Source of the DNA: Kamptonema formosum PCC 6407
GTDB lineage: Bacteria; Cyanobacteriota; Cyanobacteriia; Cyanobacteriales; Microcoleaceae
Direction: 5' to 3'
DNA length: 64,000 nt
Assembly (NCBI RefSeq): GCF_000332155.1
Contig: NZ_KB235903.1
Location: forward strand, 1,698,100 to 1,762,099
Notes under the pieces: model-generated
What the model was told of the DNA's origin: nothing
The model's database searches: none
The model's input: the letters and a program-made list of their open reading frames with translations, nothing else
In this document: piece after piece, positions 30,113 to 49,208 of the stretch
Layout: each line of letters starts with the position of its first letter
How positions within the stretch are numbered: position 1 is the first letter of the stretch
Position numbers and translations under genes: made by a program

Positions 30113-32578
30113 TTAGCACGGAAACCAGTATAACTCACTTCCAGAAATGGGCGACTGAGACTCACAAACTCGCCGCAAATGATTAGCTAAGCGCTCCCCC
30201 CCTAAAGGAGCTAAAATATAATCTTCCACTCCTAAAGTCCGGTCTACCCAAGGTAGGCTAAACTTAACTTTTGGACTAAGGGCAACAATTGGAACTTCCT
30301 GAAGTTGCGGGTAATGGCGAAGTTCTTCAGCCCAGGCTTTACCCTGTGTTTCTGAAACTTCTGCATAAATCAGTACCATGTCTACGAAACTGGGCAAAAA
30401 TTGAGAGTGAACTGCTTCTATATTAGATAAAAATGTGACTTCAAATCCATTAACGGAAAACAATCTTTTCAGATTTCTAGAGTTGTTCGGCGGTGTACCA
30501 ATGGCAACTACGCGGGTTTTTTCTAATTTATTTTCCCAGTTGTACTGCCTTGTATCTGCCCCTATTTGCCCTGAATTTAAGGGGTTATTACAGAGAGTAC
30601 AATTGGGAATATTGTAGGCACTTCCTTCCGATACTGGAATAGGCAAATTGCAGCGGGCGCACTGGATAACTGTACAGTTTCCTCCTAGAAAATTGCCAAA
30701 GCAATCAATATCTCCTTCCACATAAAGCTCTCGAAAGTCCCGTCGCTGTTGTAGCTGTTTCCACAGATCCTTAAAGTCACTATGATAGCCCCAATATTCA
30801 TAAACTAATCCTCGAAAAAATAGCGGGCCGCTCATGGGACTCAGAACACTTTTGCCACGACTGACATAGTAAGCAACATAGCTCATTAATAACTCTATGT
30901 TTGTATTTTTCCCCCTAGTTTTTTGATGGCTTGGTATAGGATTACTAACTGGATTTGGGGAAGGGAGAGGGATCTGGGGAATCAAAGCATGGTTATGATT
31001 TCTGGTCGAGCTCAATATCCTTGCTGTTTTCGCCTGAGAAAGGGCTAGTTCTGCATCCGCAATCAATTGATTAGCAGAGGATTTAGCGTCAGGAATAGTG
31101 CTAGCAACTCCGTAACTGAGAGTGACGTATTTACCGATCTGAGAATTGGTATGCGGGATTTCTAATGCTTTTACCCGAAAGCGGATTTCTTCTACAATTA
31201 GTACAGCATTTTCCGCCTCTGCATTTGGTAAAATCGCTGCAAATTCTGTGTCGCTGTAACGAGCTACTAAAGCACCTAAACGGTTCACATTAGAACGAAT
31301 TGTAGTGGCGATTTGTTTCAGAGTGCGATTGCCTGCTTGATAACCGTAGGTGTCATTATATTTTTTGAAAAAGTCTATCTCCCAAATAATCAGAGACAAA
31401 GGTATTTTTTCCTGTATTGCTCGCTGCCACTCTGATAGAAAATATTCGTCGAAGCGGGAACGGTTAGGAACCAAGGTAACGGGATCTAATAAAGTTAGTT
31501 GCTGCAATTTTTCCTGCGCTACTTGCAACTGCTGATTTAGATCTGATTGCTGAATCGCGATCGCGATTTGAGTTGCCATTCCTTTGAGCAAGTCTATCTC
31601 TGATTGTTGCCACTGTCGGGGTGTCGAACATTGATGCACAATTAACAATCCCCAGAGTTGATTGGAGATGGGAAATTCTGACTCTGGACTGTTTTGCAAA
31701 ATTGGTACTGCCAGCCTTGCTTTGATATTAAAAAATGTTAGTAATTGCAGCAGCCGCAGATCTAGTCCGGCATGGCGGATATCGGTAATGGCCAAAGATT
31801 CTCCTTGCTGATACTTTTGAAGGTATTTTTTTTCTAAAATAGAGGGATAGTGAATAATAAATTCCAGCATGGAAGGGAAACCCAAACCTACTGCCTCTGC
31901 AACGGCTGAACCGTTCCCGTCTTTAAAAAAACGGTGGATAATTACTCTATCGGCTTGCAGAAATTCCCGCAATTCTGTAACTGTGCTATTAAAATTTTCC
32001 TTCAGGTTTAATGACTGGCGAATTCGATCTTGCATCGCTCCAATTAGCCGATCTCGATCGCACTGTTGCTCTCGCAATTTTTCTACTTGTTTGCTCTCAG
32101 TAAGGTCGCGGATAATATTTAATATGATTTTTTCTTCGCCGAGTTCTATGCTTTGGGCGGTGATTTCGATGGGAAATACGCTCCCGTCTTTGCGGATGTG
32201 AACCGTTTCAAAAGTAATGGCTTCCTTGTCTACTTTTGCCATTTGCTCAGCAAAGCTATCCAAGTTATCAGAAACTTGTAAATGCTGAATATTTAAAGAA
32301 AGCAATTCTTCAGGCTCATAACCGTAAGCCTTGAAAGCGGCATTATTCGCTTCAGTAATTCTCCCATCAAGCTGAGTAAATAAAATTAGATCGCGAGTAT
32401 TTTCCGAAAGCAGTTTATAGCGTTTTAATGTCTCTTCTACATAACTATGTTTGCTGAGAGTGTTGCTAAAACCGTAGGGCATTTCCTGATTGCAGTGTCT
32501 GCACAACCAGTAAAGTTTTCCGAGGCGGACATGGGACAGCAAAGGGTAGGAACATAAGGGGCAAACATATTCACTCAT
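30113..32578 (-). CDS. PAS-GAF-GGDEF-like signalling protein with zinc ribbons and receiver-like tail
   Basis: An 821-residue cytoplasmic protein. Order: N-terminal zinc ribbon (CPLCSYPLLSHVRLGKLYWL then CRHC), PAS (about 45-165), GAF (about 185-345) and a GGDEF-fold domain (about 360-520). Next comes a segment with a second zinc ribbon, CARCNLPIP...CTLCNN (about 640-670), and a receiver-like domain lacking a clear phospho-acceptor context (about 690-815). The GGDEF signature is replaced by YSDTEF in VARYSDTEFAAILPNA (about 435-441) and the I-site is absent, so diguanylate cyclase activity is doubtful. It may instead bind GTP or c-di-GMP as a sensor. The downstream phytase-like gene is six bases away. 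Confidence 0.82.
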   Translation of the reverse strand: MSEYVCPLCSYPLLSHVRLGKLYWLCRHCNQEMPYGFSNTLSKHSYVEETLKRYKLLSENTRDLILFTQLDGRITEANNAAFKAYGYEPEELLSLNIQHLQVSDNLDSFAEQMAKVDKEAITFETVHIRKDGSVFPIEITAQSIELGEEKIILNIIRDLTESKQVEKLREQQCDRDRLIGAMQDRIRQSLNLKENFNSTVTELREFLQADRVIIHRFFKDGNGSAVAEAVGLGFPSMLEFIIHYPSILEKKYLQKYQQGESLAITDIRHAGLDLRLLQLLTFFNIKARLAVPILQNSPESEFPISNQLWGLLIVHQCSTPRQWQQSEIDLLKGMATQIAIAIQQSDLNQQLQVAQEKLQQLTLLDPVTLVPNRSRFDEYFLSEWQRAIQEKIPLSLIIWEIDFFKKYNDTYGYQAGNRTLKQIATTIRSNVNRLGALVARYSDTEFAAILPNAEAENAVLIVEEIRFRVKALEIPHTNSQIGKYVTLSYGVASTIPDAKSSANQLIADAELALSQAKTARILSSTRNHNHALIPQIPLPSPNPVSNPIPSHQKTRGKNTNIELLMSYVAYYVSRGKSVLSPMSGPLFFRGLVYEYWGYHSDFKDLWKQLQQRRDFRELYVEGDIDCFGNFLGGNCTVIQCARCNLPIPVSEGSAYNIPNCTLCNNPLNSGQIGADTRQYNWENKLEKTRVVAIGTPPNNSRNLKRLFSVNGFEVTFLSNIEAVHSQFLPSFVDMVLIYAEVSETQGKAWAEELRHYPQLQEVPIVALSPKVKFSLPWVDRTLGVEDYILAPLGGERLANHLRRVCESQSPISGSELYWFPC

Positions 32579-40119: not shown

Positions 40120-40163
40120 ATTTGAGATTTAGAATACTTGATGACTTAATTCAATCAGCCAAA

Positions 40164-41876
40164 ATGACTCAACTCAATCAGAAAAAAACAAGCAAGTCCA
40201 CCAATATCCAATTACCCAAATGTCCCACTGGAATTCAGGGACTAGACGAAATTACTGGAGGCGGACTACCCAAAGGACGACCGACGTTGGTTTGTGGTTC
40301 TGCTGGCTGCGGTAAAACTCTGCTAGGAATGGAATTTCTAGTTCGTGGCGCGACAGAATACGGCGAACCAGGGGTATTTATATCCTTTGAAGAAACCGTA
40401 GAAGAGCTCACTCAAAATGTCACTTCTTTGGGGTGGGATTTAGATCGATTGGTAGCCGAAAAAAAGCTCAGCATTGACTGTTTGTATATCGATCCTTCCG
40501 AAATTCAAGAAACTGGTGAATACGATTTAGAAGGGATCTTCATTCGCTTGGGCTATGCGATCGATAGCATTGGTGCCAAACGGATAGTTCTAGACACGAT
40601 TGAAGTTTTGTTTTCCGGTTTATCCAATACTGGCATTGTCCGAGCAGAACTCCGCCGTTTGTTTCGTTGGCTCAAAACCAAAGGTGTTACTGCTATTATC
40701 ACAGGTGAACGAGGTGATAATAGCCTAACTCGTCAAGGCATAGAAGAATACGTCTCTGATTGCGTTATTCGTTTGGATCAGCGAGTTTATGAAGAACTCT
40801 CTACCAGGCGGCTGCAAATTTTTAAATATCGAGGTTCTCAACATGGTAGTAACGAATATCCTTTCTTAATAGAAGAAAATGGTATTTCTGTCTTACCAAT
40901 TACCTCCATTGGACTAAATCATAACGTTTCTAGCGATCGCATCTCCAGTGGCATCCCCCGCCTAGATGCCATGCTGGGAGGAGAGGGTTACTTTCGCGGT
41001 AGTAGCATTTTGATCACGGGGATGGCTGGGACAGGCAAAAGTACGATCGCTGCTGCTTTTGCCGCCGCCACCTGTCAGCGCGGAGAAAAGTGCCTGTATC
41101 TCGCCTTTGAGGAAGCCCCCCAACAAATTCTCCGTAACATGAGATCGATCGGTATGGATTTAGAGCGTTATATTCAACAGGAATTGCTACAGATTCAAGC
41201 ATTACGTCCTACCGCTCATGGTTTAGAAGTACATTTAGTACAAATTCATCGATGGATCAACTATTTTCAGCCTACTACCGTCATCATCGATCCGATCAGC
41301 AACCTAACTTTAACTGGCAGTCTTCTGCAAGTTAAAGCCTTCTTTATGCGCGTAATTGACTACTTAAAATCGCAACAAATCACAGTGTTGATGAACAACC
41401 TAATTAGTGGCGGAACTCCCCTGGAAAATACAGAGATCGGGATTTCTTCGCTGATGGATACCTGGCTAGAAGTGCGGGTAATTGAAAGCAACGGCGAGCG
41501 CAATCGCATCCTGCAAGTCATCAAGTCTCGCGGGATGGAACACTCAAACCAGGTGCGAGAATTCCGATTAACAAGTCAAGGCGTGGAATTGGTAGATGTT
41601 TACTTAGGACAGGACAAGGTACTAACTGGAACCGCCAGGGCAATTCAGGAGTTAGCGGATAAACAAGCAACTATACGACGACAGCAAGAAATTGCTAACC
41701 GACGGCGAGATTTAGAACAGCAACGACAATTAATTCAGACTCAAATTACTACATTACAGATGCAGATGGAGGCAGAAAAAGCAGAAGTCGATCGCCTAAA
41801 TCAAGAGGAGAATATGAATAAAGTCGGGTTTCTTCAGGATCAAAGGATCATCGCGCAACTTCGTCGGGCTGATTAA
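40164..41876 (+). CDS. KaiC-like double-domain ATPase
   Basis: 570 residues from the ATG at 40164. Two RecA-fold domains: CI with Walker A GSAGCGKT (45-52) and catalytic FEE (in [11 protein letters not shown]), and CII with GMAGTGKS (286-293) and FEE in [11 protein letters not shown]. The CII phosphosite region is GISSLMDT: Ser428-Ser429 occupy the positions of Ser431-Thr432 in Synechococcus KaiC. After CII the usual A-loop tail is not evident; instead a coiled-coil segment of about 60 residues ([20 protein letters not shown] onward) follows. It belongs to the KaiC family but is not the standard clock protein (519 residues). The next two genes encode KaiB homologues, so KaiB-KaiC binding is likely. 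The catalytic residues suggest ATPase activity. Confidence 0.9.
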
Positions 41877-41913
41877 CCAGTTACCACATTTAGAAAACAG
41901 GGAAATAGCCATT

Positions 41914-42228
41914 ATGAATCAACATAGCGAACTGAATTCACCTAAATTAGAGAGATGGGAACTGCGACTGTACATTGCCGGCCAGACTCCCAAATCAGTG
42001 AGAGCCTTTGCTAACCTGAAAAAGCTCTGTGAAGAATACCTCCACGCTCAATATCGAATTGAAGTTATTGATTTATTACAGAACCCGGAGTTAGCGAAGC
42101 AAGATCAAATTCTGGCAATTCCAACCCTAGTGCGAAAACTGCCGCAACCGATTCGGCAAATCATTGGGGATTTATCTAATCAGGAAAAAGTTTTAGTAGG
42201 ACTTGATATCGCAAAGGTTGAAGAATGA
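41914..42228 (+). CDS. KaiB homologue 1
   Basis: A 104-residue protein with the full KaiB pattern: [60 protein letters not shown] and [14 protein letters not shown]. KaiB switches between a tetrameric ground fold and a thioredoxin-like fold that binds the CI ring of KaiC. The length is close to that of clock KaiB (about 102 residues). It follows the KaiC-like gene by 37 bp and precedes a second kaiB gene, all on the same strand. Confidence 0.93.
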
Positions 42229-42267
42229 AAAAACACTCTGAACACAGACAGTTGAGAGGAAATAGTA

Positions 42268-42639
42268 ATGGTAAATGAAGTACCGCCGGAAGACAATCAG
42301 CTACTGCAAGAAGACAACAATAATTTGATGGCAAATTTTGAACAAGCAATCGCGGAACTGGAACAGCAACATTACTGTCTCCGCTTATATATTGCCGGCA
42401 CAACTCCCCGTTCGACGAGGGCGCTACAACGGATCAAATCTATCTGTGAAACCTATTTACAAGGACGATATGACTTAGAAGTGATTGATGTTTATCAGTC
42501 TTCAGAACAAATGCACCTAGATAACATCGTTGCCATCCCCACCTTAATCAAGCAACTGCCTCTCCCCCTGCAACGTATGATTGGGGATCTGTCCGATACC
42601 GAAAAAGTGTTGTTTGGGTTAGATATTGTACCTAAATAA
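42268..42639 (+). CDS. KaiB homologue 2, N-terminally extended
   Basis: A 123-residue KaiB relative: YCLRLYIAGTTPRSTRALQR, YDLEVIDVYQSSEQMHLDNI, VAIPTLIKQLPLPLQRMIGD and TEKVLFGLDIVPK. About 30 residues rich in Glu/Gln/Asn precede the fold (ENNLM-type stretch EDNQLLQEDNNNLMANFEQA). The conserved DQIxAIPTL becomes DNIVAIPTL and key charged residues differ from copy 1, so the two KaiB proteins may bind KaiC at different stages or affinities. It lies 39 bp after copy 1 and 27 bp before the histidine kinase gene. Confidence 0.9.
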   Translation: MVNEVPPEDNQLLQEDNNNLMANFEQAIAELEQQHYCLRLYIAGTTPRSTRALQRIKSICETYLQGRYDLEVIDVYQSSEQMHLDNIVAIPTLIKQLPLPLQRMIGDLSDTEKVLFGLDIVPK

Positions 42640-42666
42640 AATACTCTCTTAACCCTGGTACTTACA

Positions 42667-45600
42667 ATGGAAGATACTAATAAATCAAAAACAGAACTGT
42701 TAGCTGAAATTCAATCTTTGCGCGAACGGCTGACCGCAAGCGAGGATATCGTGCGAGCGATTCAGCAAGGGGAAGTAGATGCGTTAGTTATTTCTACCGC
42801 CCAGGGTCGAAAAGTTTTTACCCTCCAGAGTGCTGACCTATCCTACCGACTGTTAGTTGAGGAGATGCAACAAGGGGCTGTAGTCCTTTCGACCGATGGG
42901 CTAATTTTGTACTGCAATAAAAGTTTTTCCAATTTATTGAAACAACCGTTAGAGAAGCTGATTGGTTCATATTTTCAATTCTTAATTTCCCCCCATGACA
43001 CCCCTCTATTTCAGGCACGAGTTCAACAAGCAGAAATGGGCGATCGGCATCCTGTAGAAATGTTTCTGCTCGCCCGCGATGGCGTTGAAATTCCTGTCTA
43101 CCTATCCATCAATCCTCTGATCCTTGATGACTCCCCGATCAACTGTCTTGTAATTACTGATTTAACTGAACAAAAGCGCCATGAAAAGACTATTGCCTCG
43201 GAAAAACTGGCGCGTTTAATTCTAGAGCAGGCGGGAGAAGCAATTCTCGTCTGTGACCATACCGGACAAATTATTCGTGCTAGTGCAATTGCCCAACAAC
43301 TCTGGGGAGAAAATCTACTATTTCAACCCTTTGATAGACTGGGAATTTTCAGTTTTTTTCAATCCAATTTTTCCTTAGTTATAAGCCAGGAAAAAATCTT
43401 ATCAGCGGCAGATATTGCCCGTAATTCCCCGGTTAAAGTTCCCTTTTCAATTACACCCGTGCTGCATGGAGAAACCTATAAGGGGCTTGAGGTTGAATTT
43501 GAACGCCGGGATGGACAAGTTTTAAATCTGGTCTTAAATGCTCGCCCTCTAGCTGACCAGGACAATAACTTTAGAGGAGCAGTTGTAATTCTTACTAATA
43601 TTACTCAACGCAAACAGGCTGAGAATGCCTTGCAAGCAGCCAAGAAAGATCTAGAAATAAAAGTTGTAGAGCGTACCCAGGAATTGCAGGTAGCAAACTA
43701 TCGCTTACAACTAGAACTCTTGGAACGGGAAAGACGAGAGAAAATCCTTCAAGACCAAGCACAATTAATCGATTTAGCTCACGATGCCATTCTGACTGTC
43801 GATTTGAACGATGCCATTACTTTTTGGAATCACGGTGCGGCCGTATTGTATGGCTTTTCTCAAACCGAAGCTTTGGGAAAAACTCTAGCACAATTGCTGT
43901 CAACCAACTTTCCTAAGCCCTTAACAGAAATCAAGAAAGAACTATTTGAATATGGGCGTTGGGAAGGCGAACTTATCCAACAGAGAGGAGATGGTACATT
44001 AATATTTGTCGCTAGCCGTTGGACAGTGCAACGGGATTTAGCAGGTAAACCGAAAGGAATCATGAAAATTAACGCAGATATTACTAAAAGTAAGCAAGCA
44101 GAAAAAGCGTTAATTTATTCTAGTTTACGGCTATCTAAAATTTTAGATATTGCTAAAGATGCGATTATTTCAGTTGACGATCTTCAAACAATTACTCTAT
44201 TTAATAAAGGAGCAGAAAAGATTTTTGGCTATACGGCTGCTGAGGTATTGGGAAAATCGTTGACTTTGTTATTACCTTCTCGGTTTGACTCTGTTTATAG
44301 CGAGAAATTTACTAATGTTCCTCAGTCTGATGAGAAAACCCGCAGGATGGAAGAGCGGAATGAAGTTTTTGGTCGCCGCAAAGATGGTACTGTATTCCCG
44401 GCTGAAGCTTCTATTTCTAAGCTGGAATTGAATGGAGAAAAAATATACACTGCCATTCTGCGCGATATTTCAGAACGCAAGATTGCTGAAACATCACTGA
44501 GAGAGCGAGAAGAACGCTTTCGCAAAGTTTTTGAAGAAGGGCCAATTGGCATGGCAATTGTTGGTTTGGATTATCGGTTTATTAAAGTTAATCCAATGCT
44601 GTGCCAGATGATCGGGTATACAGAATCCGAACTCCTTGCACTGACATTCTCCAATATTACCCATCCCGATGATTTAGAAATAGATGTACAATTAGCACAG
44701 CGATTGTTTAAAGGAGAGGTACCGTTTTACAAAATTGAAAAACGTTATTTAAAAAAGAACCAAGAAACTATTTGGGTTTCGCTAACAGGTTCTATCGTTC
44801 GCGATCGAGATGGCCAGCCTATTTACTATATAGCGATGATTGAGGACATCACCAATCGCAAACGGGCAGAAAAATCTCTGCAACAATATGAGCGAATCGT
44901 ATCTACCACCCTCGATGGCATTGTACTTCTTAACCGCGATTATATTTATCAAATTGCTAATCCAGCTTACCTGTCTTGGTACAACAAATCTTCTCACGAA
45001 ATTATCGGACATTCAGTGAAGGATATTGTGGGTCAAGAGGTGTTTGAAAATTTGAGTCCTGCGCTAGAGCAAGCTTTAGCGGGAGAAACTATTCAGTTTG
45101 AAAAATTGTTTGAGCATTTGCCAGGGGGAAAAAAATTTCTGAGCGTTACTTTTACACCTTATTTTGCAGTAGAACAAGAGATCTCAGGAGTCCTGATTAG
45201 CCTGCGCGATCTTACTAAACTTAAAGAAGCAGAGAATTCTTTACAGCAGAGCGAATCAACGCTGCGGAGTTTCTTCAACAGTGGTGCAATGCCGATGGGT
45301 ATTGTTGAACTCCATAACGGAGATATCTTGCACATTTCCGATAATTGGGCGGCGGCTCAGTTTTTTGAGAGTACCCCAGAAGCTATGCAAAATCAGTTTG
45401 CTAGTGCGCTGGGATCGCCACCAACCACTATAGAGCAATGGACTACCTATTACCAACAATCTCAACAAATTCAAGCTCCCGTTCGATTTGAACATTTCTA
45501 TGAGACTTCGACAAAGCAAGGATGGCTTTCTGTGAGTGTTTGCCCGATCGAACTTAGTCCCAGTGGATATCCCCGATTTTGCTATGTGGCTAAAGATATT

Positions 45601-48264
45601 ACCGATCGCAAACGCGCCGAAGCTGCTTTAGCCAAAAGTGAGGAACAACTGCGATTGACGTTGGATTTTACTCATATCGGCACTTGGGACTGGAACGTGC
45701 ATACCAATGAAGTGAACTGGAATGACAACCATTTTCGTTTGCTAGGAGTAGAACCACAACAAGCAAGCGATCCTTATCAGCTATGGCGCAAAGCAATTCA
45801 TCCAGAGGATCTGGACAGAATCGAACAGGCGTTATCAAATGCGCTATTCCAGCATACTGACTATGAAGCTGAATACCGGGTTGTCTATCCCGATGGTACA
45901 GTTCGCTGGCTGGTGGGGAAAGGACGCGGGATCTATAACGAAGCGGGTGAACCGCTGAAAATGCTGGGGGTAATTTTCGATGTCAGCGATCGCAAACTTG
46001 CAGAACAAACGTTAGAACTTCAGGCTGTGATTACCCGCAGCATGGCGGAAGGCATTTGTCTAGTAAGAGCCGATAATGGATTAATTATCTATGCAAATCC
46101 TAAATTTGAGCAGATGTTTGGTTATGATGCTGGGGAAATGAACGGTCAGCACGTTGCGATCGTGAACTATGGCAATGAACAGATAGAGCCCGAAGAGGTA
46201 AATCAAGCCATTCGCACTGCTGTTTTACAAAATGGGGAATTTGCATATCAAGTTCATAATGTCAAGAAAGATGGTACTCCATTTTGGTGTAGTGCAACTT
46301 GTTCTGTATTTAAGCATCCTGAATATGGCGATGTTATGGTCGCAGTCCATCAAGATATCACCGATCGCACACAAGCAGAAGCAGCTTTGCGCGAGAGTGA
46401 AGAAAAGTTTCGTCAGTTTGCAGAGAATATTCAGGATGTGTTCTGGATGACAGACAACCAAACGCAACAACTTCTTTATGTGAGCCCTGCTTATGAAATT
46501 ATTTGGCAACGTAGTTGTGAAACCCTCTATTCAAACCCATTAAATTGGTTAGCGACTATTCACCCAGACGATCGCCCACAAGTCGAAGCTGCGTATATTG
46601 AACAGCAAAAAACAGGAATTTACGATCGAGAATATCGGATTGTGCGACCCGACAATTCCATCCGCTGGATTCGCGATCGCGGATTTCCGATTAGAGACGA
46701 AGCCGGCAACATCATACGGATGACTGGCATTGCCGAAGACATTAGCGATCGCAAGCAAACTGAAGTAGAACTCGCTGCTGCTAAAGAAGCGGCCGTTGCG
46801 GCCAACCGTGCTAAAAGTGAATTTCTTGCCAATATGAGCCACGAAATTCGCACCCCCATGAATGCTATTCTAGGTTTTAGTGACTTGTTACAAGGATCGA
46901 TCTCTGACCCCCAACCTCGTGCCTATCTTAACTCAATTGCTGCCAGTGGCAGAACGTTACTTGCCCTGATTAATGATATACTCGATCTTTCCAAAATCGA
47001 AGCAGGTAAGCTACAACTCCAATACGAACCAGTTGATGTGCGATCGCTAGTTCGGGAAATTCAAGAAATTTTAGACCCGAAAGCCCTTAAAAAAAGTTTG
47101 TCTCTCCTAGTAGAAATCGATGAAAACGTACCCACAGCCATTCTATTTGACCCCATACGCCTGCGCCAAATTCTGTTCAACACAGTTGGTAACGCCCTGA
47201 AGTTTACAGAGGCAGGATTTGTCAAAATATCTGTACGCGCACAATTAGATCTATCCCCTAGCTCGAATCGAGTACAGATAGAAATTACCATCGCAGATAC
47301 CGGGATTGGCATTTGCTTAGAGCAACAACACAGTATTTTTGAAGCCTTTAAACAAAGTGAAGGACAAAGCACTCGTAAATATGGGGGTACAGGTTTAGGT
47401 TTAGCGATTACTAAACGTCTTACAGAAATGCTCGGTGGTACAGTCAGGCTCGAAAGCGAATTGGGCAAAGGGAGTGCCTTTACTTTTATCTTCCCCAATC
47501 TGACGATTACAGCAATAGAAACGCGATCGGTTGTGCCTTCAAAATTAGATGAAGATTTGAATCAATTGGGAACTGCAACTGTGCTAGTGGTGGATGATGT
47601 TCAATATAACCTCGATTTGATTGCGGGATATTTTGCAGGTAGCAAACACCGCCTGTTGTTTGCACAAGATGGACAAGAAGCGATCGAAATCGCGCAAAGA
47701 AATTGCCCCGATGCGATTCTAATGGACTTGTGGATGCCGAACATGGACGGACTACAAGCGATACAATTGCTGAAACAAAACAAAAGAACTCAAAATATTC
47801 CCATTTTGATCGTAACTGCCGTTTTGCGACTAGAGGACGAAATTACTGTGCGTCCTCTCTCCCAAGGATTCTTACGCAAACCCGTTAGCCGTTCCCAACT
47901 TGTCTCAGCGTTAAAGCAAATTTTACCCCAGGAAACTAATTATTTTACCATTGATGAAGCGCCCATAAATCCTACCCAAAACGAGCGAATTCAAGCAAAT
48001 TCCAAAGCCTTGGCAAAGCTTCCAGAATTAGTTGAAAAACTCCGCCAAGAAGAAGAAAGCACTTGGTTAGAATTGTGTAAAACAATGAAACGGCGAGATA
48101 TCCAAATCTTTAGGGAACGTTTGAGAGAGTGGGCGCACGAATACCAATGTCAAGCACTCCTCGACTATACGACGACCTTAGAAAGTCAGCTAGAAACCTT
48201 TAACTGGGAGCTATTGCCTAAGACCATAGAAAAATTCCCCGAAGTGAGACTTCAATTATTATGA
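42667..48264 (+). CDS. Multi-PAS hybrid histidine kinase
   Basis: A 1865-residue cytoplasmic protein without membrane spans. About ten PAS (some PAS-PAC) domains fill residues 60-1370. A HisKA domain carries His1392 (FLANMSHEIRTPMNAILGFS), followed by a HATPase domain with DTGIGI and GGTGLGLAITKRL boxes. A receiver domain has Asp1687 in AILMDLWMPNMDG and the conserved Lys in LRKPVSR. A helical C-terminal stretch of about 90 residues shows no clear phosphotransfer His. It would autophosphorylate on His and pass phosphate to its own receiver and perhaps to the next gene's product, whose ORF overlaps by 4 bp. The PAS array could hold ligands or mediate contact with the Kai-type proteins; this is inference from gene order. 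Confidence 0.92.
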   Translation: MEDTNKSKTELLAEIQSLRERLTASEDIVRAIQQGEVDALVISTAQGRKVFTLQSADLSYRLLVEEMQQGAVVLSTDGLILYCNKSFSNLLKQPLEKLIGSYFQFLISPHDTPLFQARVQQAEMGDRHPVEMFLLARDGVEIPVYLSINPLILDDSPINCLVITDLTEQKRHEKTIASEKLARLILEQAGEAILVCDHTGQIIRASAIAQQLWGENLLFQPFDRLGIFSFFQSNFSLVISQEKILSAADIARNSPVKVPFSITPVLHGETYKGLEVEFERRDGQVLNLVLNARPLADQDNNFRGAVVILTNITQRKQAENALQAAKKDLEIKVVERTQELQVANYRLQLELLERERREKILQDQAQLIDLAHDAILTVDLNDAITFWNHGAAVLYGFSQTEALGKTLAQLLSTNFPKPLTEIKKELFEYGRWEGELIQQRGDGTLIFVASRWTVQRDLAGKPKGIMKINADITKSKQAEKALIYSSLRLSKILDIAKDAIISVDDLQTITLFNKGAEKIFGYTAAEVLGKSLTLLLPSRFDSVYSEKFTNVPQSDEKTRRMEERNEVFGRRKDGTVFPAEASISKLELNGEKIYTAILRDISERKIAETSLREREERFRKVFEEGPIGMAIVGLDYRFIKVNPMLCQMIGYTESELLALTFSNITHPDDLEIDVQLAQRLFKGEVPFYKIEKRYLKKNQETIWVSLTGSIVRDRDGQPIYYIAMIEDITNRKRAEKSLQQYERIVSTTLDGIVLLNRDYIYQIANPAYLSWYNKSSHEIIGHSVKDIVGQEVFENLSPALEQALAGETIQFEKLFEHLPGGKKFLSVTFTPYFAVEQEISGVLISLRDLTKLKEAENSLQQSESTLRSFFNSGAMPMGIVELHNGDILHISDNWAAAQFFESTPEAMQNQFASALGSPPTTIEQWTTYYQQSQQIQAPVRFEHFYETSTKQGWLSVSVCPIELSPSGYPRFCYVAKDITDRKRAEAALAKSEEQLRLTLDFTHIGTWDWNVHTNEVNWNDNHFRLLGVEPQQASDPYQLWRKAIHPEDLDRIEQALSNALFQHTDYEAEYRVVYPDGTVRWLVGKGRGIYNEAGEPLKMLGVIFDVSDRKLAEQTLELQAVITRSMAEGICLVRADNGLIIYANPKFEQMFGYDAGEMNGQHVAIVNYGNEQIEPEEVNQAIRTAVLQNGEFAYQVHNVKKDGTPFWCSATCSVFKHPEYGDVMVAVHQDITDRTQAEAALRESEEKFRQFAENIQDVFWMTDNQTQQLLYVSPAYEIIWQRSCETLYSNPLNWLATIHPDDRPQVEAAYIEQQKTGIYDREYRIVRPDNSIRWIRDRGFPIRDEAGNIIRMTGIAEDISDRKQTEVELAAAKEAAVAANRAKSEFLANMSHEIRTPMNAILGFSDLLQGSISDPQPRAYLNSIAASGRTLLALINDILDLSKIEAGKLQLQYEPVDVRSLVREIQEILDPKALKKSLSLLVEIDENVPTAILFDPIRLRQILFNTVGNALKFTEAGFVKISVRAQLDLSPSSNRVQIEITIADTGIGICLEQQHSIFEAFKQSEGQSTRKYGGTGLGLAITKRLTEMLGGTVRLESELGKGSAFTFIFPNLTITAIETRSVVPSKLDEDLNQLGTATVLVVDDVQYNLDLIAGYFAGSKHRLLFAQDGQEAIEIAQRNCPDAILMDLWMPNMDGLQAIQLLKQNKRTQNIPILIVTAVLRLEDEITVRPLSQGFLRKPVSRSQLVSALKQILPQETNYFTIDEAPINPTQNERIQANSKALAKLPELVEKLRQEEESTWLELCKTMKRRDIQIFRERLREWAHEYQCQALLDYTTTLESQLETFNWELLPKTIEKFPEVRLQLL

Positions 48265-49208
48265 CATCATTCAAACCAGAAAACTGCTTGATTTTAGTCG
48301 TCGATGATGTTACTGAGAATCTGCAATTAATTGCTTTAATTCTAGAAAAAAGAGGTTATGAAACCACTTTTGCTACTAGCGGAAAGCAAGCTTTAGAGCG
48401 CGTTCAAACTGCCAATCCCGACCTAATATTATTAGATTTTATGATGCCACACATGAATGGCTTGGAAGTTTGCGAACAACTGAAAGCTAATCCTGATGTA
48501 GCAGAAATACCGATCATTTTTCTCACTGCTAGCCACGAGCAAGAGCATTTAATCCAAGCCTTTGAAAAAGGAGCAGTTGATTACATTACCAAACCCTTTA
48601 GTACAGCAGAGCTACTCGTCCGGGTGCGAACGCACTTAGAGTTAAAATATATGCGAGAGCAATTGAAAAAGTCGTTACAGGAGCAAGCACAATTAACTAA
48701 AGAGTTACAAAATTTAGCTAATACAGATCCATTAACTGGAGTGTGGAACCGTCGTTATTTGTTAACTTTATGTGAGGCAGAGATCGAGCGAGCTTGCCGA
48801 TACAATCATTTGTTTTCTGTATTAATGCTGGATCTAGATCGCTTCAAACAAATTAACGATATTTACGGGCACTCTGTAGGAGATGAAGTGCTGATTGGGA
48901 TGACAAAGATTGTCAAAAATTCTTTAAGAAAAGTAGATTTTTGGGGACGGTTTGGGGGAGAAGAATTTGTAGTAATTCTACCAGAAACTAATCTGGATTC
49001 TGCCGTAGACGTGGCTGAACGTATCCGCGCTACCCTGGAAAAGACAGAGTTTCCGATTCAAGAAAAACAGGTGAAAATTACAGTTAGTATTGGAGTCTCT
49101 ACCTATCAATTGGAGGATCAAAAGATCGATCTGGTACTTCAACGAGCTGACAAGGCGCTTTATCAAGCCAAAAATCAAGGGCGCAACCGAGTTGTTGGCG
49201 ATCGATAA
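48261..49208 (+). CDS. Response regulator with diguanylate cyclase domain
   Basis: A 315-residue PleD-like protein. Receiver (about 10-125): acidic pair in LVVDDV, phospho-acceptor Asp59 in ILLDFMMPHMNG, and Lys in ITKPFSTAELL. A coiled-coil linker (about 125-155) leads to a GGDEF domain (about 155-313) with GGEEF at 232-236 and an inhibitory-site RKVD at 223-226, five residues upstream as required. The enzyme should make cyclic di-GMP from two GTP and be product-inhibited. It overlaps the kinase gene by 4 bp (ATGA), implying coupled translation and a cognate pair. Confidence 0.94.
   Translation: MTSFKPENCLILVVDDVTENLQLIALILEKRGYETTFATSGKQALERVQTANPDLILLDFMMPHMNGLEVCEQLKANPDVAEIPIIFLTASHEQEHLIQAFEKGAVDYITKPFSTAELLVRVRTHLELKYMREQLKKSLQEQAQLTKELQNLANTDPLTGVWNRRYLLTLCEAEIERACRYNHLFSVLMLDLDRFKQINDIYGHSVGDEVLIGMTKIVKNSLRKVDFWGRFGGEEFVVILPETNLDSAVDVAERIRATLEKTEFPIQEKQVKITVSIGVSTYQLEDQKIDLVLQRADKALYQAKNQGRNRVVGDR

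Follow-up and report, generated by a model that had tools for sequence, protein, structure and literature searches.

A KaiC2-KaiB-kinase gene unit with a diguanylate cyclase in Kamptonema formosum, and a Kai-linked N-terminal module of its candidate output proteins

A 64,000-nucleotide stretch of the genome of the filamentous cyanobacterium Kamptonema formosum PCC 6407 (contig NZ_KB235903.1, positions 1,698,100 to 1,762,099 of the forward strand), hereafter the window, carries at positions 40164..49208 a run of five genes for a KaiC-like ATPase, two KaiB proteins, a hybrid histidine kinase and a receiver-GGDEF diguanylate cyclase. Gene order and its recurrence support the view that the five genes are one conserved unit, and on balance the whole run probably acts as one signalling unit, in which a KaiC2-KaiB switch would act through a module at the front of the kinase on the kinase, the receiver-GGDEF protein and the level of cyclic di-GMP (c-di-GMP). 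The action of a Kai switch on c-di-GMP appears well supported by gene context. The protein encoded after the kaiB genes opens with a helix-hairpin module of about 54 residues that is apparently undescribed. New here are this Kai-linked module, the exchange of outputs behind it and the split between two kinds of KaiB.

The five genes lie on the + strand with gaps of 37, 39 and 27 bp, and the start of the cyclase gene overlaps the stop of the kinase gene by 4 bp, an arrangement already described in the initial annotation of the DNA and confirmed by the open reading frame (ORF) coordinates. The first gene (40164..41876; 570 residues from ATG, with an alternative TTG start upstream in the same frame at 40122) encodes a KaiC2-type double P-loop ATPase/autokinase, as judged from the ORF list, Pfam, NCBIfam (KaiC, 378 bits) and motifs: Walker A at residues 45 and 286 and FEE at 75 and 315. 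It is followed by kaiB-a (41914..42228; 104 residues) and kaiB-b (42268..42639; 123 residues, with an N-terminal extension), whose products match PF07689 above its cut-off over 82 of 82 domain positions (103 and 84 bits) and score below the NCBIfam KaiB equivalog cut-offs. The hybrid histidine kinase (42667..48264; 1865 residues) consists of the N-terminal module (residues 13-66; 42703..42864), a PAS array (sensory_box, 10 stretches), HisKA and HATPase_c (46810..47496) with the phospho-acceptor His1392 in SHEIRTP and the N and G boxes, and a C-terminal receiver (47581..47913) with Asp1687. The fifth protein (48261..49208; 315 residues) is predicted from its domains and motifs to be a receiver-GGDEF diguanylate cyclase; its receiver has the VVDD, LLDFMMP and TKP motifs with the receiver Asp and Lys, and an intact I-site (RKVD, 223-226) lies five residues ahead of GGEEF at 232. 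The paired motifs of KaiC, the two KaiBs, the roughly ten PAS domains, both phospho-acceptors of the kinase and the I-site, all named in the initial annotation, are thus borne out. A promoter and terminator scan of the run found sites no more numerous than in shuffled sequences.

The window KaiC is, by its sequence, of the KaiC2 type, an assignment based on its Ser-Ser phosphosites and its C-terminal extension. The phosphosites (ISS within ISSLMDT at 427) align with the SS of Rhodobacter sphaeroides KaiC (PDB 8dba), and a Thr stands five residues ahead of the Ser-Ser in both proteins; we take this Thr to be position 426, and the serines 431 and 432, in Synechococcus elongatus KaiC numbering. 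The extension is present, the 570-residue chain aligning with 8dba through residue 566. 8dba is the top PDB match (640 bits over residues 17-566), and lower matches are the next kind, 8zn5 (371 bits), and 1u9i (340 bits), presumably S. elongatus KaiC. The best match of KaiB-a is 8fwj_M (5e-31), the KaiB chain of a structure that also contains this Rhodobacter KaiC, and that of KaiB-b is 4kso. In the accessible parts of the papers cited here and below, the KaiC2 group is described as having Ser-Ser phosphosites and a C-terminal extension of about 50 residues (PMC5520375, PMC10076222), and the subgroup definition includes the absence of the R-linker in CI (PMC5520375).

Like the canonical KaiABC-SasA/CikA-RpaA clock, the window unit has KaiB and KaiC homologues and a kinase as output, but its kinase lacks the KaiB-like N-terminal domain of SasA: Pfam finds no KaiB-like match in the 1865 residues, and AlphaFold2 (AF2) gives a helix and a hairpin at the N-terminus, so that a SasA-like domain there was rejected. 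Elsewhere the genome encodes a further full-length KaiC accompanied by a kaiB of its own (contig C6, 1655206-1657116), as well as a KaiB-HisKA-HATPase (SasA-like) protein, which rules out the run as a part of the canonical clock, and with it the timer of the initial annotation if read as a KaiABC-SasA-RpaA clock. A further 267-residue protein of this genome (L060:7840-8643; C6:1948385) has a C-terminal KaiB domain (183-262) and no Pfam domain before it.

Relatives of the unit were gathered as 126 distinct KaiC2 loci, 53 cyanobacterial and 73 other, after removal of 5 duplicates. Six loci cut at contig ends were dropped from the counts, as was L044 (G027), whose KaiC2 is 78% identical to that of the window and which has no kaiB within its 19.5-kb stretch. 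A first greedy gene map lost kaiC in 4 of the 126 loci and mis-split some kaiB genes, and the counts therefore come from a six-frame reanalysis that also took in six loci seeded with the module and three further loci of the window genome. Of 386 genomes sampled from the phylum, 15 have KaiC2, and at E 1e-140 it is present in 7 of 61 genomes of the family and 44 of 388 of the order; KaiC2 proteins are about 60% or more identical and other KaiCs 39% or less. The order kaiC-kaiB-kaiB-PAS output occurs in Pseudomonadota, Bacteroidota, Planctomycetes, Firmicutes, Actinobacteria, Nitrospira and others. This four-gene core is widespread and has in part been published already.

The full five-gene order recurs in two other genomes, which places the run beyond chance. 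These are the closest named relatives by KaiC, Kamptonema sp. UHCC 0994 (L062; 92%) and Argonema antarcticum (L063; 91%), and each retains the 4-bp overlap of kinase and cyclase; the four non-kinase proteins are 83-92% identical to those of the window, the cyclase 83-84%. The identities in L063 are 91% for KaiC, 85 and 89% for the KaiBs, 75% over 1151 residues for the kinase and 83% for the cyclase; in its 21.7-kb stretch no flank gene of the window finds a match at E 1e-20, and the five genes are kept as a block. L062 also retains a 463-residue gene upstream of the unit, presumably for asparagine-tRNA ligase. The PAS count of the kinase changes fast, from 10 in the window to 7 in L062 and 6 in L063 by the same profile. 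Scattering of the genes in relatives had been named beforehand as grounds for doubt, and the neighbourhoods speak against scatter, with one split case. In that genome (G467; L170 and L212), kaiC2 stands with a kaiB of the first kind; another kaiB and the module kinase lie together at a second place on that contig, over 1 Mb distant.

The N-terminal module has the consensus xxxxxLxxRLxEAEETLxAIRxGEVDALVVxxxxGxQVFTLxGADxxYRxLVEx, and residues A31 and D38 of the window kinase do not vary in the alignment of module copies. Pfam and NCBIfam assign it to no family (best E 0.07 and 0.08), a profile search of the PDB returns nothing below E 0.3, and a text search of the accessible literature for GEVDALVV found no paper. 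The AF2 model of the window copy, built with 76 relatives, has a mean predicted local distance difference test score (pLDDT) of 89.8 and a predicted template modelling score of 0.67; in it residues 8-33 form a helix and residues 39-44 and 47-52 a beta hairpin, both ahead of PAS 1.

The module is linked to kai genes in all matches inspected. A hidden Markov model (HMM) built from the window copy matched 93 of 10,459 ORFs in the 126 loci, spread over 92 loci with one module protein each, except for two neighbouring ones in L140. After the six-frame reanalysis, a kaiB lies upstream on the same strand of every module match (100 of 100), with a median of 86 nt and a maximum of 1371 nt from the end of the KaiB domain to the start of the module. 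The window kinase thus has both features that define a Kai-linked module protein, the N-terminal module and a same-strand kaiB upstream. Because most loci had been collected through KaiC2, searches were also run with the module alone. In the window genome the single match is the window kinase. In Cyanobacteriales there are 28 places in 27 of 291 genomes, all downstream of kaiB on the same strand and all within 0.5 kb of it except L199 (1.05 kb); nine of them have no KaiC2 at the locus, one being the kinase of G467 and eight belonging to g3, a genus of the window's family. In Pseudomonadota, 10 of 398 genomes have a match, one of them the centre genome chosen for its KaiC2, and all 10 matches adjoin kaiC and kaiB. 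The one match among 72,556 plasmid records (E 1e-3, single consensus query) lies in a kaiC-kaiB-kaiB-response regulator/kinase cluster of Pararhizobium. In 26 named genomes selected for KaiC2, 26 of 27 matches coincide in position with the KaiC2 locus already identified, and the last is a second Nitrospira locus, kaiC-kaiB-kaiB-module-GGDEF-EAL. The genome scans report matches under E 1e-5 or 1e-6, and remote or low-ranked copies may escape them.

The eight g3 loci (L211, L213-L216 and L242-L244) hold a kaiB pair, or one kaiB of the second side of the KaiB tree described below, followed by a module-PAS-GGDEF protein. KaiC2 is absent from these loci; it was found nowhere in seven of the eight genomes, and the eighth (G261) has it elsewhere.

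Behind the module, the output part is exchanged. The 98 module loci encode 70 kinases, 14 GGDEF-EAL proteins, 6 GGDEF proteins and 8 proteins not assigned by profiles. Scored as kinase or c-di-GMP enzyme, output type requires at least 7 changes over 83 loci on the KaiC2 tree (12-15 in shuffles) and 8 changes over 91 proteins on a tree of the module and PAS 1 (14-20 in shuffles). One short KaiC was left out of the KaiC tree and the 8 module proteins of unassigned output were left out of the change counts, which come from quick trees and carry no direction of change. By these sequence trees, output type is inherited and yet repeatedly swapped, while the front end is retained.

The comparison also supports a tie between KaiC2/KaiB and c-di-GMP enzymes that, as read from gene context, recurs across many lineages. 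Of the 53 cyanobacterial loci, 16 have a c-di-GMP gene within the unit or next to it: in 3 it encodes the module protein itself and in 13 it lies within 1.5 kb. Eleven of the 53 combine a module kinase with a separate adjoining c-di-GMP gene, which in one case (L055) is on the opposite strand. The 73 non-cyanobacterial loci include 12 module c-di-GMP proteins, one adjacent gene and 5 far ones, indicating that the link there is made solely through the module protein. Since the window genome (6.9 Mb in 12 contigs) has 39 GGDEF matches, a single GGDEF neighbour alone is weak evidence. One such gene, for a PAS-GAF-GGDEF protein, lies 7.6 kb upstream on the - strand (30113-32578), outside the unit. 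In L058 (G344) the kaiC2 frame is fragmented, and a module kinase, a receiver-PAS-GGDEF frame and a separate EAL frame lie downstream.

The two KaiBs are, by their sequences, old paralogues. A tree of 229 KaiB domains has a single branch (Shimodaira-Hasegawa-like approximate likelihood ratio test 95) that parts 97 first from 97 second copies without exception (194 of 194), and seven alignment columns are diagnostic between the two kinds. Sorting by HMMs trained on non-cyanobacteria was rejected, as it placed 34 of 34 cyanobacterial first copies correctly and just 26 of 34 second copies; the kinds were assigned by the tree, which separated all 194. The second side of the tree also contains the canonical KaiB of the window genome. 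A further KaiB kind on that side, scoring no more than 15 bits from both kaiB profiles, occurs in single-kaiB cyanobacterial loci among L169-L197 (for example L179, L189-L190 and L192-L197), where it accompanies KaiC2 and no module protein was detected. Among the 119 uncut loci with kaiB, a module protein is present in 89 of the 93 KaiC2 loci with at least two kaiB genes. On the KaiC tree, presence of two kaiB genes and presence of the module agree in about 7 of 11 independent pairs, with 0.1 opposite and 3.9 not differing (median p 0.016). L212, L213 and L216, which have no KaiC2 at the locus, each carry a single kaiB next to the module gene, and the KaiB tree places it on its second side. 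Among the remaining Pseudomonadota module loci, apart from those with a single first-kind KaiB considered below, 1 of 10 has a single second-kind KaiB and 4 of 10 have two KaiBs.

These observations lead us to infer module docking, a direction of regulation, a phosphotransfer route and energy sensing. KaiC2 and KaiB-a would make up a Kai switch that works without KaiA, as in Rhodobacter, and KaiC2 phosphorylation state may track the cellular ATP/ADP balance, by analogy with Rhodobacter (PMC10076222, PMC11372060). The module at the front of the kinase would read the Kai state through KaiB-b or a KaiC2-KaiB assembly, and Kai state and PAS signals would jointly gate the kinase. His1392 would then hand phosphate to Asp1687 and, in this lineage, the relay would continue to the receiver of the cyclase protein, whose phosphorylated form would dimerise and make c-di-GMP. 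Extending this beyond the window, it is a tentative reading, just short of an even chance, that the module is the Kai-docking domain of a cross-phylum effector family in which KaiB-b is the usual adaptor, the effector is swapped between kinase and c-di-GMP enzyme, and the g3 loci form a KaiB-driven c-di-GMP switch.

A number of points weigh against these proposals. In Synechocystis, kaiC2 and kaiB2 mutants remain rhythmic and the system is thought to be independent of the clock (PMC11372060), which weighs against a clock role. The receiver-GGDEF fifth gene is found in 3 of the 53 cyanobacterial KaiC2 loci, all close relatives (the window, L062 and L063), and kinase phosphate could go elsewhere than to the cyclase. 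The density of c-di-GMP genes near cyanobacterial units is modest (13 near in 416 kb, 2 far in 246 kb, in roughly drawn zones) and no excess near the unit is seen in other phyla (1 near in 528 kb, 5 far in 398 kb); a general excess near KaiC2 across phyla was accordingly rejected outside cyanobacteria, module proteins aside. Of the link from Kai proteins to a second messenger drawn in the initial annotation, conservation of the unit and recurrence of the c-di-GMP tie stand, and the five-gene form proves rare, most relatives having a kinase only. This rarity, together with the 70 kinases among 98 outputs and the published ties of KaiC2-type systems of other bacteria to stress (PMC5520375, PMC8069551), suits an explanation in which KaiC2-KaiB-KaiB-kinase is a real unit with transcriptional or stress output and the receiver-GGDEF gene was captured later, its product being phosphorylated incidentally or by other kinases. 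We regard it as rather unlikely, as the overlap and the cyclase identity persist in both relatives when all flanks have changed in one, and as different c-di-GMP genes stand at the unit in other cyanobacteria (11 of 53 loci have a module kinase with an adjoining c-di-GMP gene).

The other adverse points concern the module and KaiB-b. AF2 confidence is uneven inside the module (block means 65-96), and in a Foldseek search with module and PAS the 50 matches listed are PAS-type proteins, no Kai-binding fold being among them. The genome scans scored the best candidates of a loose first pass, up to 16-23 per genome in Cyanobacteriales and Pseudomonadota, so that other copies may be missed. KaiB-b does not seem to be a strict requirement: 3 of 26 single-kaiB KaiC2 loci (L067, L116 and L121) have the module, and a single KaiB, of the first kind by HMM margins of 11-18 bits, is all that 5 of the 10 Pseudomonadota module loci have. 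Four loci with two kaiB genes lack the module. A rule making KaiB-b obligatory for the module was rejected on L067, L116, L121, L235 and L237-L240. The module might be a mere linker or dimerisation helix of a PAS family, its Kai linkage reflecting shared operon descent and not binding; a long helix and hairpin before PAS resembles signalling helices, all copies seen come from one operon family, and no Kai-binding fold is matched. This explanation is unlikely, if still to be taken seriously, because the module outlasts several exchanges of the C-terminal output, is not detected in other PAS proteins of the scanned genomes within the limits of those scans, and keeps its place next to kaiB at loci that KaiC2 has left.

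The direction of regulation could also be reversed, kinase and cyclase regulating the Kai proteins, with PAS input setting the state of KaiB or KaiC2 and c-di-GMP as a parallel output. With its ten PAS domains the kinase is a large sensor, the S. elongatus rhythm shifts when c-di-GMP is altered (PMC13001216, whose accessible text mentions no Kai-encoded cyclase), and the kinase of the Rhodobacter kaiBC operon has been proposed as input (PMC5520375). This direction seems quite improbable, as the parts swapped behind the module, kinases and c-di-GMP enzymes, are output enzymes and so agree better with an effector role, and as kaiB stays with module-PAS-GGDEF in g3 at loci without KaiC2.

The proposed unit, with the kinase and cyclase as effectors, has partial counterparts among published Kai systems. 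The Rhodobacter sphaeroides KaiBC system is a KaiA-free hourglass whose KaiC has a coiled-coil extension and two serines (PMC10076222, PMC11372060), encoded in a kaiC-B-PAS/HK operon (PMC4794148). The window shares the KaiC extension, the two serines and a PAS kinase in the operon, in line with its top PDB match, and goes beyond it in having a second KaiB, a 10-PAS hybrid kinase and a receiver-GGDEF protein. Photosynthetic Bradyrhizobium has a kaiC-kaiB-PAS kinase-receiver operon (PMC3899966). In Methylorubrum extorquens AM1 the order is kaiC1-kaiB2-kaiB1-kaiR1 and the Kai system has a role in UV resistance (PMC8069551); like the window it has a kaiC-kaiB-kaiB-signalling order and conserved phospho-serines, and, unlike the window, it is described without a cyclase in the part of that paper available, the likeness being one of description only. 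The Ramlibacter genome paper (PMC3164672) describes a first context group whose non-cyanobacterial members nearly all carry, after kaiC or kaiB, a gene for a kinase or a GGDEF/EAL protein. These clusters resemble the window in having such a gene downstream of kaiC and kaiB and differ in that cyanobacteria are excepted and the accessible section names no shared N-terminal module. The same paper describes an Nt domain in kinases of the group lacking kaiB, said to resemble KaiB, SasA and a receiver, which is set apart from the window module by description and not by sequence; two KaiB kinds and the kinase-plus-cyclase form are features of the window that are absent from that section. The window cyclase resembles PleD/DgcR-like cyclases in its receiver and GGDEF domains with an I-site (by NCBIfam names below cut-offs) and differs in being encoded in a Kai operon, where a Kai-linked kinase would activate it. 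In the literature found on kai with c-di-GMP or GGDEF (PMC13001216, PMC3164672, PMC3899966, PMC10581220), which was read in its accessible parts and left subscription papers mostly outside the search, neither the five-gene form nor the module appears.

For KaiC2-KaiB2 systems outside the circadian clock, the accessible literature gives no molecular account of their output to the cell. A module that marks output proteins across phyla offers a concrete candidate binding site and allows functional predictions for many kinases and c-di-GMP enzymes that lack annotation; how the two KaiBs share their work also becomes testable. If the proposal is true, c-di-GMP, which governs motility and biofilms, would be a direct and repeatedly chosen output of Kai proteins.

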